From NCBI RefSeq assembly GCF_000568815.1, contig NZ_CP007201.1, positions 186,001 through 250,000 of the forward strand: a stretch of DNA of 64,000 nt, written 5' to 3'. This stretch comes from Sulfurospirillum multivorans DSM 12446 (lineage in GTDB: Bacteria; Campylobacterota; Campylobacteria; Campylobacterales; Sulfurospirillaceae). The number at the start of each line of letters is the position of its first letter. Position 1 is the stretch's first letter. The notes under the pieces are model-generated. The model was not told the DNA's origin. It saw only the letters and a list, made by a program, of their open reading frames with translations, and made no database searches. Below are positions 1,585 through 39,951 of this stretch, one piece after another. Position numbers and translations under genes: made by a program.

Positions 1585-1636
1585 GATGGATTTGTTGTGA
1601 AATGATAGATTCTGCCTTGATAGAGGTAGTAGCGTT

Positions 1637-1664
1637 TTGGGCTTTGCTCAAATAGCGTTATAAA
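1637..1664 (+). promoter_or_regulatory. Possible nuo operon promoter
   Basis: TATAAA at 1659-1664 stands 16 nt downstream of TTGGGC (1637-1642), just before the nuoA start region. The match to a housekeeping sigma consensus is only fair; it is proposed because the upstream gene appears terminated. Confidence 0.3.
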
Positions 1665-1686
1665 ATGAATGAATGAAGGAATGATG

Positions 1687-15560: not shown

Positions 15561-16883
15561 ATGAAATCTATTTTAATCTTCCTTTTAGCATCGGTACAAC
15601 TCTTCGCTTTGGAGATTGTTTTAAACAGTGGAAAAGAGAGTAGGGTGAATTACGCCATCTTACATGTAATGGATGCAAAGCCCTTTTTATGCCAAACAAT
15701 CCCTGATGCCCTCGATAAAAAACACTACATTTGTACGATCAATCGACCCATTGACAAACCCATAGATTCGAAGAAAATGAAGCTCGTAGAGCTTGATTTT
15801 TATGAAAAAGAGGGTCTGTTTTATGTCGCGATTGAGCCAAAAGTCGATTCAAAACTGATCCCTGTGGAAGAGAGTCTTTATACGACCAGTGAGATTTTAA
15901 CGAAACCTCAAGAGAAGCTTTATTCCCACTGGACGATTCTCTTGCAAGAAAAACCCCTTTATGAAGAGAAGAGTGTTCAAGATGGAATTGACTTTCCTGT
16001 TGAATTCCCCAAATATCAAAAGCCTTACATCGGCGCACTTGATCTCAATGGTGCTCCTATTTCATACGCACAAAGCAAAGATATAGGGCTCTATTTAGAG
16101 ATTAAGAAGGCGTATGAGAGTGGTTATTATGATAATGTGGTGAAAGATGTCAAACGTGTTTTAACGCTTTTTCCTAACTCGATTTTTCGAAGTGAACTGG
16201 AACTGTATCAGATGCGCGCCATGGATAAAGTCTTGAGCGCTAAAGGTGAAGACAAATCCGATAATCTCGCTTTCAATGAAAATGACATTATCACTGTGGG
16301 TAAACGGTGGACAAAAGAGTTTGCCAGCGATGAGAATATTCCTGAAGTGTTAATGTTGATGACCAAAGCGTATATCAAAAGTGGCTCTAAATCGGATACC
16401 AATTATTTTATTGATATTTTAATCAGCGAGCATCCCGATAGTCTTTTTACCAAACGTGCCATTTTGCTCTATGCCGATAATCTTTTCCTTAAAAAAGAGA
16501 AAGATAAGGCGATGAAACTCTACCTCGATGTTCTCTTTAGCGCGCAAGATTTGGACATAGCATCCGAAGCGGCGATTCGCTTGAGTGATCATCAGATGGA
16601 TGCGGGTAAGATGAAAGAGGCTAAAGAGTATCTGCTAAAAGTGCTCAATGTCAATGCGCAGTATCTTCTTAAAGACAAAGAGGCCAGTTATAAGTTAGCA
16701 CGAAGACTTTTTGAACATCGGCTGTATGACTTAGCGGCGAAGATTACCGATTTGCTCTTAGATAACGCATCGAAGCGAGAGGATAATCGAGAGCTCTTAC
16801 TTAAAGAGAGTGGAGATTGGCATGCCAAAGCCAATGAGGTGGAAGCGGCACATGCACGCTATCAAGAGTATTTAAATGATTAG
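15561..16883 (+). pseudogene. pflA: pflA, 5' part (interrupted by IS)
   Basis: PflA is a periplasmic flagellar-motor disk protein needed for stator recruitment; C. jejuni mutants make flagella but do not swim. This part has a signal peptide (MKSILIFLLASVQLFA), a beta-rich region, then TPR-like helical repeats. The start is ATG 15561; an upstream GTG at 15528 lies inside the terminator. The frame ends at TAG 16881-16883, created where a mobile element inserted. Identity rests on position after nuoN, signal peptide, TPR-like content and total length (440+359=799 residues when rejoined, close to ~790-800 for PflA as I recall). A 440-residue secreted fragment could still be made. Confidence 0.82.
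15660..15669. repeat. TTACATGTAA copy within pflA
   Basis: Exact 10-bp palindrome inside the 5' part of pflA, read as LHV. One of at least 23 exact copies listed under the dispersed-repeat entry. Confidence 0.85.
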
Positions 16884-16897
16884 ACATCTTGCAAAAC

Positions 16898-17362
16898 TCA
16901 TTTGTATTCCACAGCAAAACCACGGTCAAAGTTGATTAATCCACATATCAAATTAAAGCGTAGATTGAATCGTTTTCTTCTGTTTCTGTATTTTTGGGTG
17001 AGTATCTGAAATGTTTTGATTTTAGCATTCACATGTTCAACACATATTCTAGCACTTGCTTTTTGTCTGTTTTCCTCTTTTTGCTCCTCACTCAAAGGAT
17101 GAAGTTTGGAGGCTTTATGGGGAATTTGACAATGGCTATGTTCTTTGGCAATACCCAGATATCCCAAATCAACATAAACACAGGTCTTGGGCATCAAGGG
17201 GAGATTAGATTCTTGAAACAGTCTAAAATCATGTGTCGTACCTTTAGCGGTATGCACACACATAATCCTCTCCTCTTTATCAATCACAATCTGTCCTTTA
17301 AGGGTATGACGCTTTTGCTTACCTGAGTAGTACTCTCTTTGCTTTTTTTGGGTCTTTGACAA
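16898..17362 (-). CDS. IS5-like transposase, C-terminal DDE frame (OrfB)
   Basis: The open frame is 154 residues. Its start is nominal; the real product is probably made by -1 frameshifting from OrfA, giving ...RPKKKQREYYSGKQKRHTLK. The second catalytic Asp is in CVYVDLGYLG and the Glu in CVEHVNAKIK, typical of DDE_Tnp_4-type transposases. It ends 15 bp inside the left inverted repeat end. Confidence 0.85.
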   Translation of the reverse strand: MSKTQKKQREYYSGKQKRHTLKGQIVIDKEERIMCVHTAKGTTHDFRLFQESNLPLMPKTCVYVDLGYLGIAKEHSHCQIPHKASKLHPLSEEQKEENRQKASARICVEHVNAKIKTFQILTQKYRNRRKRFNLRFNLICGLINFDRGFAVEYK

Positions 17363-17757
17363 GGCGTTTCTGTCGCATCAATGACAACAAAAGAGAGGGC
17401 AACATCACTTTTATAGAGTTCTCTCTTGCTTGGCAATGAAAATCTACCAGACTTAATCAACACTTCTTCTACTTCACATACAATCCTTGAAGCCGTTGAT
17501 TCACTCACACCATAATCAAATCCAATATGTTCAAGGGTGCGATACTCACGATAATAGCCAAGCATCAAAAGTACTTTATTTTCTGGTGAAAGAGATCTCC
17601 TCCCTCCTACACCTAATCCTTTTTTACGATTCTCATCGTATTGCCTAAACACCTCTATCATTGCGTTAAATGTCTCTTCATTAACGCCAATATGGCGCTT
17701 AAAATCTTTGGGTTTATGCTTTTGCATTTGTTCATATTTTTTCATGCCTCTTGCCAA
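17284..17757 (-). CDS. IS5-like transposase, N-terminal frame (OrfA)
   Basis: 157 residues. It carries a helix-turn-helix region (LEHIGFDYGVSESTASRIV, residues ~75-93) and the first catalytic Asp in FVVIDATETPCQRPKK near the end. After PKK the frame drifts into unrelated residues. The minus-strand sequence CCCAAAAAAAGC (A7 run at 17343-17349) allows a -1 slip to the second frame, so a ~286-residue fused transposase is expected. Confidence 0.85.
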   Translation of the reverse strand: MARGMKKYEQMQKHKPKDFKRHIGVNEETFNAMIEVFRQYDENRKKGLGVGGRRSLSPENKVLLMLGYYREYRTLEHIGFDYGVSESTASRIVCEVEEVLIKSGRFSLPSKRELYKSDVALSFVVIDATETPCQRPKKSKESTTQVSKSVIPLKDRL

Positions 17758-17796
17758 GCATTTTTAGTGCCTTTTATTTGAGTTTTGCAAGATGTC

Positions 17797-18876
17797 TATT
17801 ATAAAAACAGTGGTGATTATGTTCAAGAAGTAACGGAGAGTTTGGATGAGCTCTTTTTTAAACGGAACGAAAACAATGAGACAAAACTTGCCAATTACTA
17901 TGATAAATTGATCGAAAAATACAACAATGAAATTGGGCAAAAAGCGCTGTTTGAAAAAGCAAAATTATTGCTCAAACAAGAGCGATTTGAAGAGGTTTTA
18001 AACCTTCAAAAAGAGCTTGAGCGCGTACCGGACCGCTTTGAAATTAAGCCTGAAGAGTTGGTCTATGAAGCGGCAAAAGCTTTGGCATTGCAACAACTTC
18101 AGAAAGATGAATGCCATACTGTGGTCAATCTCATTGAAACCTATAAACTTCAAATTACTGAGCCTGAATACGAAGAGAAACTTTTTCAATGTTTTATGCG
18201 TGTATCGCGCTTTGATCGAGCTAGGGAGATTTCAACAGCACATCTTAAAGACAGCACTCTTTCAAACAGGTACTACTGGGCTCAAAAAGAGGTTCAAGCA
18301 CTCTTTAAAATGGGCAAATACCCAGAAGCACTTGCGTTTAAAGAAGATCTGAAAACCCTCTCTTTTTCACTCAGAGAAACCATTGGACTAGAGACGATTC
18401 GCGATCTTTTCTTCTCGTTGGTCAAACTCAAAAACCTTGAAGGTGCCGCTTCGTTGGCGGAGGGTATTAAAATTCTCTATCCTAATGAAGCGAGCAATTT
18501 GGATATCTATTATGAGATTGTGAAAATGGCGAGTGATGCTAAAAACGATCTTCTGCTCGTAACATACGCAGAGGCAAGCCTTGAGATGCAAAAGAAGTTT
18601 AACTCCACAGCCCTTAGCCCCACACTGGAGTTTAGTTATGTGGATGCGCTAAAGCGTTTGGGTCGAGATGAAGAGGCTTTACGTATCGCAGAGTCGCTTC
18701 TACCTCAAAATTTAACACCTAAAGATAGAATACGACTCTTCTATCAAGCAGGAGAGCTCAGTTTAAAATTGCAAGATACGGCTAAAGCCAAATCGTATTT
18801 TACACAGTGCGTCGCCATTAACGATAACAGCTCATGGAAAAATATCTGCCAACAAAATCTTGATTTAATGCCTTAA
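17797..18876 (+). pseudogene. pflA: pflA, 3' part (interrupted by IS)
   Basis: Continuation of pflA after the IS. Removing bases 16883-17798 (element plus one TA) joins AAT GAT to TAT TAT AAA AAC in frame, giving ...EYLND-YYKNSGDYVQEV. This part holds 359 codons of TPR-like helices through the natural stop at 18874-18876. It has no start signal or ribosome site of its own, so it is probably not translated. No other stops or frameshifts are visible, which suggests a recent insertion. Confidence 0.85.
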
Positions 18877-19018
18877 AACGTATTTTGTAAGAAGTAAAAA
18901 GCACCAAAGGTGCGTGGGCTTACTGCCGAAGTAAACCCAGTGTTAACGTAGTTTTTTCACAGAAACTTCGTTTTGAGCTTTGCTTTAAAAACGTGTTCAG
19001 AGTTCTGTAAGAACTCTA
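18872..19018. repeat. MITE-like structured repeat, copy 1
   Basis: About 147 bp between the convergent pflA 3' end and the aldehyde dehydrogenase gene. It aligns along its length with 39791-39945. Right end AGAGTTCT-GTA-AGAACTCT then TA resembles the IS5-like terminal repeat; the left end is more decayed. Inside are a GCACC/GGTGC hairpin, a TGGGCTTACT/AGTAAACCCA hairpin (18915-18939, one C-A mismatch) and a GTTTTT/AAAAAC pairing (18951-18956 with 18987-18992). It may also terminate both genes. Confidence 0.8.
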
Positions 19019-20437
19019 TTAAAACAATATAGACTTGATCTCGCAAAAAGCGTCCATGGAGTAGCGTCCACCCATTCTGCCTAGACCTGATTGTTTCATG
19101 CCACCAAAGGGAGGGTTTTTTGCCTTTGATGCAGCAGTATTGATCAGAACTCTTCCACTTCGTATCTGTTTAGCAAATTCATACGCCTTCGTTTCATCGC
19201 TTGAAAAGACATATGCAGAGAGCCCAAAAAGAGTGTCGTTTGCCATGCTGAGCGCTTCTTGCTCACTCTCGTAAGGTAGAACGCATAAAACGGGGCCAAA
19301 GATCTCTTCTTGCACGATTTTTAATGTTTGATCGTGACAGATAAAAACGGTTGGTTTGACAAAATAGCCTTTCTCAAATTCTTGAACCCTTCCAAGTCCA
19401 CCGCACAAAAGCTGCGCCCCTTCTTCAATACCACTTTTGATGTAGGCTTGTACCGTATTAAACTGGGTTTGGTTGATCATTGGACCAATCTTTGTCTCTT
19501 CGTTTTTTGGATCGCCGATTGTGAGTTTTTGGATCGTTTCGAGGAGTAGCCGTTTGACTTCGTTCAATTTTGCTTTGGGGACTAAAAGTCTACTGCCTGC
19601 ATGGCACGCTTGCCCGCTATTGCTATAGGCACTGCTTAAGACATGAGGAATCACTTTGGCTAAATTCGCATCTTCTAAAAGAATCGTAGGGGATTTTCCA
19701 CCGAGTTCGAGGGTCATACGTTTAATGGTTTTAGAGCAGTTTTCAAAAATTTTTTTGCCTGTTTTGGTACTTCCAATAAACGAAATAGCATTGACAAGCG
19801 GATGTTTTGTTAAAATTTCACCGACACTCTCACCGGTGCCATGAACGACATTGACAACACCTTTGGGAACATTGGCTCTGTGCAAACACTCTAAAAACGC
19901 TTGGGTTTCAAGGGCATTAAATTCACTGGGTTTAATCACCAGTGTACATCCAAGTGCGATGGCAGGAGCGATATTACTACATAAATGCGCTAGATTGGCA
20001 TTCCACGGAATGATCACGCCAATGACGCCCACGCCCTCTTTGATTGTTATGGAGTAGTCATCTTTTTTGATAAAATCGTAGCTTTTAAGCTCTTCTTTGA
20101 TCGCTAAAAAGAGGTTGATAGCATTTTTGGTTCGTCTGCGTGTCGTGGTAATCGTCGCGCCAAATTCTAAAACGGCTAAGTCAATCAGTCTCTCTTCGTG
20201 CTTGATCAGTTCATCATGAATATGCTGTAAAATCTCCATTCGTTCCTGAATCGACGTTTTTGAAAAGGATTCAAACGTCGTCGCTGCGCAATGAATGGCT
20301 TCGTCCATTTCAGAAGGCATGCTCAAATAAATTTGAGCGATTTCCTCTTCGGTTGTAGGATTTTTCAGCGTTAAGCTTTTGCTCGAATCAATTTTTTTAA
20401 ATTCGCCGTTGATGTAGTTTTGGTCGATTATTTTCAT
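19019..20437 (-). CDS. NAD(P)-dependent aldehyde dehydrogenase
   Basis: 472 residues of the aldehyde dehydrogenase superfamily. The catalytic Glu lies in LELGGKSP and the catalytic Cys in NSGQACHAGSR; the cofactor-binding GSTKTGKKIF and the C-terminal FGLSAYVFS and PPFGGMKQSGLGRMGG motifs are present. It oxidises an aldehyde to its acid; the substrate cannot be read from sequence. AAGG upstream of the ATG supports the start. It runs convergent to pflA and lies upstream of no obvious pathway partner. Confidence 0.9.
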   Translation of the reverse strand: MKIIDQNYINGEFKKIDSSKSLTLKNPTTEEEIAQIYLSMPSEMDEAIHCAATTFESFSKTSIQERMEILQHIHDELIKHEERLIDLAVLEFGATITTTRRRTKNAINLFLAIKEELKSYDFIKKDDYSITIKEGVGVIGVIIPWNANLAHLCSNIAPAIALGCTLVIKPSEFNALETQAFLECLHRANVPKGVVNVVHGTGESVGEILTKHPLVNAISFIGSTKTGKKIFENCSKTIKRMTLELGGKSPTILLEDANLAKVIPHVLSSAYSNSGQACHAGSRLLVPKAKLNEVKRLLLETIQKLTIGDPKNEETKIGPMINQTQFNTVQAYIKSGIEEGAQLLCGGLGRVQEFEKGYFVKPTVFICHDQTLKIVQEEIFGPVLCVLPYESEQEALSMANDTLFGLSAYVFSSDETKAYEFAKQIRSGRVLINTAASKAKNPPFGGMKQSGLGRMGGRYSMDAFCEIKSILF

Positions 20438-36715: not shown

Positions 36716-37483
36716 ATGATAGATGTTGGAATCCATGGCTCGACCGGTAGAGTAGGCAGATTGTTGATTGAAAACCTCATAAAAGATAAAGAGGCAAGAC
36801 CACACGTTTTGCATGCACTGGAAGATTTTAACTTTATGCCTCCCAAAGAGGCAATCGTAACGGATGATGTTGTAGAACTGTTACAAAAAAGTGCTGTTAT
36901 CATTGACTTTACCATTGCTATGGGGTGTGAAACATTGCTTGAAAATGCGCTGAAGCATCCTACTCCTCTTGTTATTGGAACGACAGGGCTTAACGAACAT
37001 CAACAAAATCTCTTAAAAGAAGCGGCGAATAATATGCCTATTCTTTACTCTACTAATATGTCTTTGGGTGTAGCCGTACTCAACCGTTTGGTTGAGCTTG
37101 CTTCTAAAAGCCTGAGTGATTTTGACATTGAGATCGTGGAGCAACACCACCGTTTTAAAAAAGATGCACCCAGTGGTACGGCATTAACCCTTGGAGAGCA
37201 CGCTGCTCGTGGACGAGGTCTTAATTTAGATGATGTACGTGTCAGTGGTCGTAATGGTCTTATTGGTGAACGTAGTAAAGATGAGATTGCTATAATGGCA
37301 CTTCGTGGTGGTGACATTGTTGGGCGCCATACGGTAGGATTTTACAATGATGGTGAATTTATTGAGATGAACCATACGGCAACCAGTCGTGATACCTTTG
37401 CCAAAGGCGCTATCAAAGCCGCAAAGTGGATCATCAATCAACCAAATGGTCTTTATACCATTAGTGACTGTTTAGGTCTTTAA
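36716..37483 (+). CDS. dapB: 4-hydroxy-tetrahydrodipicolinate reductase
   Basis: Lysine and meso-diaminopimelate pathway enzyme. 255 residues with the N-terminal GIHGSTGRVGRLL nucleotide fold, EQHHRFKKDAPSGTAL catalytic segment (His and Lys), and a C-terminal FAKGAIKAAKWI. Begins 15 bp after trxB. Confidence 0.95.
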   Translation: MIDVGIHGSTGRVGRLLIENLIKDKEARPHVLHALEDFNFMPPKEAIVTDDVVELLQKSAVIIDFTIAMGCETLLENALKHPTPLVIGTTGLNEHQQNLLKEAANNMPILYSTNMSLGVAVLNRLVELASKSLSDFDIEIVEQHHRFKKDAPSGTALTLGEHAARGRGLNLDDVRVSGRNGLIGERSKDEIAIMALRGGDIVGRHTVGFYNDGEFIEMNHTATSRDTFAKGAIKAAKWIINQPNGLYTISDCLGL

Positions 37484-38840: not shown

Positions 38841-39793
38841 TGCGCGAGATTTTAACCGCTGGGCGGTACTTTAGGAGAAAATTTGGGGAAAATGTGTACA
38901 AAATCCCCATCTCTATCTCTGGATTTACCTGTCCGAATATCGATGGTACGGTTGCGCGAGGTGGCTGTGTTTTTTGTGAAAATGAATCATTCAGCCCCAA
39001 TTTAGAGCACAACCAGCCGAAACGATTTTTCCTCAACCCGACTTCAGAAAATCCTTACTTAGCATTTCAACTGATTCAGTTAGAAGCACAGTATAAGAAG
39101 ACCAAAAAAGTACTGGCTAAAAAATTTGGCGCTCAAAAATTTATCATCTATTTTCAATCCTTTACCAACACCTACGCTCCACTTACGACACTTCAAGCCC
39201 TTTATACGAAAGCGCTTAGTTTTGAAGGGGTTGTGGGGCTTAGCATTGGCACGCGTACCGATAGCATCAACGAAGAGGTGCTTGCGTATTTGGCTGAGCT
39301 TTCCACACAGCATGAAATTTGGGTCGAGTATGGGGTGCAATCTTCATCGGATGAGACACTTAAACGCATCAATCGTGGACATGATAGTGGTAATATTGAG
39401 AGATACATCACTTTAACGCATCAGTACGGGCTTAAAATGTGTGCGCATGTTATCTTTGGACTCCCTGGAGAAACACCTGAAATGGCGTTGGAAAGTGTGA
39501 AGTTTGCCCTTAGACTTGGCGTTCACTCGTTCAAATTTCATCCCTTGTATGTTGTCAAACGAACAGCCTTGGCGAATGATTTTAAAAAAGGAGAGTTTTC
39601 GCCTATCTCAGAGGAGTGCTACATTCAAACGTTGATTGAAGCGATCAAGCTTTTGCCAGAAGAGGTGATGTTACAACGTGTGAGTGCAGGCATTGAAGAT
39701 GAAACACTGCTCTCTCCTGCATGGTGTTATACCAAACATCAGCAGATGTTTAATATTCGACAAGCCTTAAAAAAAGAGGGGTTTATGTATTAG
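38840..39793 (+). CDS. Radical-SAM protein, TIGR01212/YhcC type
   Basis: 317 residues. The cluster motif is spaced as C-x9-C-x2-C (FTCPNIDGTVARGGCVFC), typical of the YhcC-like/TIGR01212 group of Elp3-like radical-SAM proteins. GLSIGTRTD and VEYGVQSSSDETL follow. Its TAG stop (39791-39793) lies at the left boundary of the MITE-like repeat, so the element may supply the stop and part of the natural C-terminus may be lost. Confidence 0.85.
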   Translation: MREILTAGRYFRRKFGENVYKIPISISGFTCPNIDGTVARGGCVFCENESFSPNLEHNQPKRFFLNPTSENPYLAFQLIQLEAQYKKTKKVLAKKFGAQKFIIYFQSFTNTYAPLTTLQALYTKALSFEGVVGLSIGTRTDSINEEVLAYLAELSTQHEIWVEYGVQSSSDETLKRINRGHDSGNIERYITLTHQYGLKMCAHVIFGLPGETPEMALESVKFALRLGVHSFKFHPLYVVKRTALANDFKKGEFSPISEECYIQTLIEAIKLLPEEVMLQRVSAGIEDETLLSPAWCYTKHQQMFNIRQALKKEGFMY

Positions 39794-39945
39794 ACTTCTT
39801 GCAAAATACATTTTGCAAGAAGAAAAAGCACCAAAGGTGCGTGGGCATTGCGCCGAGCAAAACCCAGTGTTAGCGTAGTCTTTTCACAGAAACTTCGTTT
39901 TGAGCTTTGCTTTAAAGACGTGTAAAGAGTTCTGCAAGAACTCTA
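39791..39945. repeat. MITE-like structured repeat, copy 2
   Basis: About 151 bp flanked by TA, between convergent genes. Left end TAGACTTCTTGCAAAATACA and right end (reverse complement) TAGAGTTCTTGCAGAACTCT both resemble the IS5-like end TAGACATCTTGCAAAACTCA. Hairpins: CTTCTTGCAAAA/TTTTGCAAGAAG, GCACC/GGTGC, TGGGCATTGC/GCAAAACCCA (39842-39866) and GTCTTT/AAAGAC (39878-39883 with 39914-39919). Compared with copy 1, four pairs change on both strands of the stem. No reading frame of note inside. Confidence 0.85.
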
Positions 39946-39951
39946 ATAGCA

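Follow-up and report, generated by a model that had tools for sequence, protein, structure and literature searches.

Mobile intergenic repeats such as ERIC, the Correia elements (CREE/Nemis) and RUP are ~100–150 bp long, can fold in mRNA and come in long and short subtypes distinguished by an internal indel. Duplication of an ANT target is a feature of the ISL2 group. The repeat analyzed here, which we call repeat A, resembles ERIC, Correia and RUP, on a comparison by description only, in being mobile, intergenic, foldable and divided into long and short subtypes, but differs from them in that its core is also found, throughout an order, apart from any transposon ends. It likewise shares with IS5-family MITEs having ISL2-group-like ends the terminal inverted repeats of a resident IS5-family element, a 3-bp ANT duplication, a length of ~125–160 bp and tens of intergenic copies, while departing from them in that its interior is under a strand-specific pairing constraint and its 3' half exists without transposon ends. 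We consider it probable that repeat A is a MITE of the ISL2 type whose interior contains an RNA-like folded module, one that also exists free-standing and whose function we infer below. The MITE itself belongs to a known type, and the novelty lies in the structured core that it has captured, which is distributed across the order and has no entry in Rfam.

The window, that is, the whole stretch of 64,000 nucleotides analyzed (bases 186001–250000 of a single-contig genome of 3,175,729 bases), contains two copies of repeat A, both on the plus strand, both of the long subtype and both located between convergent genes. Copy 1 (18881–19017) has its left terminal hairpin reduced to the right arm (18881–18893), the left arm being missing, followed by hairpin H2 (18901–18913, GCACC-AAA-GGTGC), hairpin H3 (18915–18939, reading TGGGCTTACT-GCCGA-AGTAAACCCA, with covarying inner pairs), helix H4 (18951–18992), which forms part of the shared 3' core, and the right terminal hairpin H5 (18999–19017), which is the right inverted repeat. 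The 3-bp flank on its right is ATT (19018–19020), and its orthologue in genome G019 is 99% identical. Copy 2 (39792–39944) is complete, with both terminal hairpins, H3 at 39842–39866 (reading TGGGCATTGC-GCCGA-GCAAAACCCA) and H4 at 39878–39919, between target-site flanks ATT (39789–39791) and AAT (39945–39947) that differ in the middle base. This insertion hit the stop codon of the gene upstream, which the first two bases of the element, AG, restore by completing TAG. In both copies H4 contains the insert TCACAGAAACTTCGTTTTG; most copies of the family are ~20 bases shorter, the difference being this insert in the last long hairpin. The family was present in all 24 genomes of the genus that were searched (the source genome, with 41 BLAST matches, and 23 others), including named Sulfurospirillum genomes, and almost no matches appeared outside the genus. 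A search of IMG/VR with a 43-base pattern gave no match, on which account viral spread of the repeat was rejected.

The ends of repeat A relate it to an IS5-family insertion sequence at 16882–17797 on the minus strand, 1.1 kb from copy 1, which we regard as its putative autonomous partner. This element has perfect 19-bp inverted repeats (AGACATCTTGCAAAACTCA), an ATT duplication at 16879–16881 and 17798–17800, and two ORFs, 17284–17757 (HTH_Tnp_4) and 16898–17362 (DDE_Tnp_4); the best NCBIfam model for its transposase is IS5_4, with each of the split ORFs below the model cut-off. Four copies occur in the first 2.4 Mb of the genome, with five ORF matches genome-wide, and in 4/4 examined copies ATT stands on either side of AGACATC...GATGTCT. 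The left end of repeat A, AGACTTCTTGCAAAACTCA, matches the repeat of the insertion sequence at 18 of 19 bases, and the right end, which reads inward as AGAGTTCTTGCAGAACTCT, is related. Identical 3-bp flanks, mostly AAT or ATT, were found in 32 of the 52 end-complete copies of the family against 15.0 expected (permutation, p<1e-4), and the two flanks conformed to ANT in 43/52 and 41/52. Many empty sites were detected in relatives, some of them exact to the base (for instance L228 versus GCTATAATAATGA), and at the 39.8-kb site the joined flanks were uninterrupted in at least nine relatives (nine inspected). Common ends, target duplication, empty sites and high copy number show that repeat A is a MITE that has been mobile in the past. 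The sequence-only reading had held that the element was not a transposon relic, a view contradicted by the IS5-type terminal repeats, 3-bp duplication and empty sites that make most copies MITEs.

Mechanistically, repeat A is a non-autonomous transposon with IS5-family (ISL2-group-like) ends that inserts into ANT and generates a 3-bp duplication, the likeness to the ISL2 group resting on the target site, since the ANT duplication is present in the insertion sequence as well as in the repeat. Judging from the ends, the enzyme that moved it was probably the DDE transposase encoded by the resident element (16882–17797) or a relative of it. Close copies of this insertion sequence were present in only ~6 of the 24 genomes of the genus, which suggests that most copies of repeat A were moved by a transposase that was lost or by a different one; many of these genomes may once have had the partner and lost it.

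With flanking genes called by a crude home-made ORF and hexamer method, the 86 deduplicated copies of repeat A were distributed without bias among the four gene orientations (++24, --19, -+23, +-20), so that the proposal of an element carried at gene 3' ends does not hold for this family; it fits the related free-standing element described below better. The right end of the repeat lay ≤60 bases from the start of the following gene in 34/47 cases, versus 13/42 for the left end (Fisher p 1.2e-4). At three loci of S. cavolei (L209, L235 and L236), two to four core-A units follow one another head to tail, with no terminal hairpins. Solo left hairpins, possibly independent mini-MITEs, were seen once or twice.

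The claim that the two window copies differ by compensated changes was borne out by direct reading of the sequence. Three inner pairs of H3 change on both sides (A-T to T-A, C-G to G-C and T-A to C-G) while the GCCGA loop stays constant, and the H4 pairing GTTTTT/AAAAAC (18951–18956/18987–18992) becomes GTCTTT/AAAGAC (39878–39883/39914–39919); the stretch between the H4 arms is identical as claimed, though 30 nt long and not 36. Two features had gone unmentioned: the T-A pair that copy 1 has next outward in H3 is replaced in copy 2 by an A.A mismatch, which is found at that position in 17 of 53 copies, and the stem is interrupted by a C.A mismatch. Over independent copies, double-change cells in the structure numbered 61, compared with 16.5 in shuffles, none of 500 of which reached that value, so the base changes in H3 and H4 are not due to chance. 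A home-made tree-based covariation null, applied to the proposed pairs at E<0.05 with structures slid by 1–3 columns as controls, passed 6 of 46 pairs in family A, namely four of the five inner H3 pairs and two in the GTTTTT helix, and none in the slid controls or in the terminal hairpins. Under a strict test over all pairs, only one pair of family A passes alone, the proposed-pairs test being the one that is passed. The minimum free energy (MFE) of the window copies on the plus strand gave z-scores of -3.2 and -1.7, and the MFE fold of copy 2 differs from the covariation-supported fold, so that thermodynamics alone would mislead.

Profile searches recovered weaker relatives having only the 3' core of repeat A in common, which define a free-standing element, core B, of ~85 nt with three hairpins, often in tandem. 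It consists of hairpin P1, the conserved linker AGCUUUAG, a short hairpin P2, the conserved linker UAGCGUAG, a long and variable hairpin P3 capped by GCUUUGC, and CGU, with the consensus TCTGCCTC-NNNN-GAGGCAAGCTTTAGYGCC-NYAGY-GGC-TARCGTAG-hairpin-CGTG. About 20 copies are present in the first 2.4 Mb of the genome, most of them without transposon ends; some are flanked by the same terminal hairpins as repeat A, and one of these, L272, is an insertion absent from the source genome. The core-B profile matches the 3' half of repeat A copies with E-values down to 4e-7, and on this sequence similarity the 3' half is a diverged, homologous form of core B, a homology that covers this half and is not extended from H2 and H3 to P1 and P2. 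Cores of both kinds form tandem arrays. Within the window, a degenerate core B with P1 and P3 present and linker and P2 deleted (1609–1670, plus strand, E 5e-8) stands directly upstream of a gene for NADH-quinone oxidoreductase subunit A/3, and a partial match at 36833–36893 (plus strand, E 0.017) is weak and doubtful.

A covariance model of core B, built from 42 genus copies, had matches in 65 of the 200 order genomes searched. The element is thereby found in at least 23 of the 70 genera sampled, with up to 40 copies per genome, and a second model run over a sample of the phylum listed matches only within the order. Like the structured RNA families of Rfam 15, both elements have a conserved fold with covariation; unlike them, they belong to no family there, as the Rfam 15 covariance models gave no match to repeat A or core B, at genus or distant loci, even at permissive E-values. 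The open-access literature yielded no published description of either, and core B is apparently undescribed so far.

The fold of core B is likewise conserved by covariation among the copies of the genus, and 8 of its 16 pairs passed the tree-based null at E<0.05, again with none passing in the slid controls. In an alignment of 38 distant matches from other families, a few of them partial, helix P2 emerges, 17 of 18 base pairs show two-sided changes that keep the pair, 97.0% of cells are paired against 40–50% in slid versions, and 177 double-change cells were counted against 42.9 after shuffling. Outside the nested helices, the linker after P2 contains a base that covaries with the final base of the P2 loop (C-G 21 and U-A 19 of 48; A1 alignment, AGYGGC...UARCG), and the two perhaps form a tertiary or pseudoknot contact.

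Counts of G-U against A-C, from which wobble pairs that are themselves conserved were omitted, were 16:4 and 11:2 in the inner helices of repeat A and 18:2 in distant and 18:8 in genus copies of core B, while the two terminal hairpins gave 8:10 and 11:8. The strong excess of G-U in the core, unlike the terminal hairpins, indicates that one strand is selected for folding. These data show that core pairing is kept by compensated changes and that one strand only is selected, and they fit terminal ends that act as double-stranded DNA around a core that folds as one strand, either RNA or single-stranded DNA. Overall, the sequence-only reading is partly supported: its conserved fold stands, with strand specificity and many compensated pairs, and stem positions varying without pairing were not found in the core.

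The location of core B was examined with respect to neighboring genes. Within the genus, orientations were ++22, --3, -+4 and +-10 (++ versus --, p 1.6e-4), the upstream gene being in sense in 32 of 39 cases, and the 3' end of the element often lay inside an operon, 5–30 bases ahead of a ribosome-binding site and start codon, as before sucC, hisG and metX (proteins judged by inspection). At 30 distant loci no sense bias was observed (++10, --12, +-3, -+0 and five without assigned orientation), the neighbors by inspection including dnaK, an rpsP-like gene and tRNA-Arg genes. The core tolerates placement in sense and, within the genus, favors it. Divergent regions held only 4 of 64 copies, though 24% of intergenic bases are divergent (p 3.5e-4). 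By eye, no common functional class was obvious among the neighbors (sucC, hisG, metX, dnaK, rpsP, rplL-like genes and tRNA-Arg).

Strand-specific pairing is also what folding of single-stranded DNA would produce, the core then being a strand-specific hairpin for a single-strand transposase, as in REP sequences moved by RAYT/Y1, with the GTAG beside P3 as the signature. Core B does resemble REP/BIME with RAYT in its short intergenic hairpins, its tandem arrays and the GTAG directly 5' of P3, but it lacks any association with Y1 and has two further helices and long conserved linkers. We regard this explanation as unlikely, because a Y1 gene is absent from 17 of 30 core-bearing genomes, including complete ones with 14 and 12 copies, no core was found within 1.5 kb of 25 Y1 loci from the genus and its near relatives or of 24 Y1 loci from distant core-bearing genomes, and the Y1 genes of the genus have ends of their own. 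With Y1 genes that have other ends and are often absent, a RAYT/REP origin of the core is largely refuted. The Y1 transposase genes of the genus, of ~220–290 aa, have flanking palindromes, either GGGGTCAGGGCTAAA or GGGGACAGGCTACTTT (G000:C1 378549–378875; L083–L103).

Compensated changes might also arise with no selection on structure, if template switching during replication (quasi-palindrome correction) transferred a change in one arm to its partner. At single loci the arms do differ between species in a compensated way, and whole arms change together (L023 versus L219 in the left hairpin, L266 versus L241 in P3), differences that may derive from template switching or from replacement by another copy. 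However, this process predicts equal numbers of G-U and A-C, as found in the terminal hairpins (19:18) and not in the core helices (63:16), and it leaves the linkers AGCUUUAG and UAGCGUAG, conserved across families, unexplained. As an account of the core it seems improbable, whereas a contribution to the terminal hairpins is quite plausible.

An equally doubtful alternative is a plain intrinsic (bidirectional) terminator spread by the MITE. The convergent setting of both window copies favors it, and H2 is terminator-like when read on the minus strand, where GCACCTTTGGTGC is followed by TTTTT, but the hairpins of the sense strand have no T-run, core B lacks one on both strands and is located within operons upstream of start codons, and repeat A is not biased to gene 3' ends. 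A structured RNA that is autonomous, lies at the 3' ends of genes and is not a transposon, as the sequence-only reading proposed, would suit the conserved fold and the sense positions of core B behind genes, but is very improbable as a whole and is refuted for family A by its terminal inverted repeats, target duplication and empty sites.

The reading that we prefer, an ISL2-type MITE with a captured folded module, gives core B a role of its own, one that it probably performs in folded form, as RNA or as a single strand. In what is the least certain step of the proposed mechanism, the core would fold as RNA between cistrons and in the 3' untranslated parts of mRNA, where it would most likely serve as an exonuclease block or as a processing or insulation site between the genes of an operon. 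Such a role would explain both why copies can lie in sense shortly before ribosome-binding sites and why they avoid divergent promoter regions. More tentatively, the order could have in core B a new class of structured RNA present in many copies, a self-spreading three-helix module captured as MITE cargo in one genus and serving a common function in operon mRNA, namely control of processing or stability; self-spreading is suggested in that case by tandem and free-standing insertions without transposon ends or a Y1 enzyme. The system links a DNA transposon with a selected RNA-like fold, two subjects usually treated apart, and provides an order-wide multi-copy structured element, absent from Rfam, with a tested alignment and model. 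Its hosts are culturable, and the dozens of natural variants per genome constitute internal replicates for a role in mRNA processing or stability.

Two other observations concern the window. At 10–1539 it encodes an AAA ATPase of 509 aa; the model that it matches best, in part and far under the cut-off, is that of the anti-phage ATPase IteA. In 2.4 Mb we counted 1100 occurrences of the palindrome TTACATGTAA, where a third-order Markov model predicts 3.4, a ~300-fold over-representation, with 416 of the 1100 sites in intergenic DNA, which makes up 11% of the sequence. Throughout the genus there is one per ~2.2–2.4 kb, and loci from other families have almost none, a pattern that looks like that of a DNA uptake sequence, and 23 sites lie in the window, including those at 1567, 4910, 5125, 6577, 7804, 7840, 10815, 15660, 21369 and 23410.
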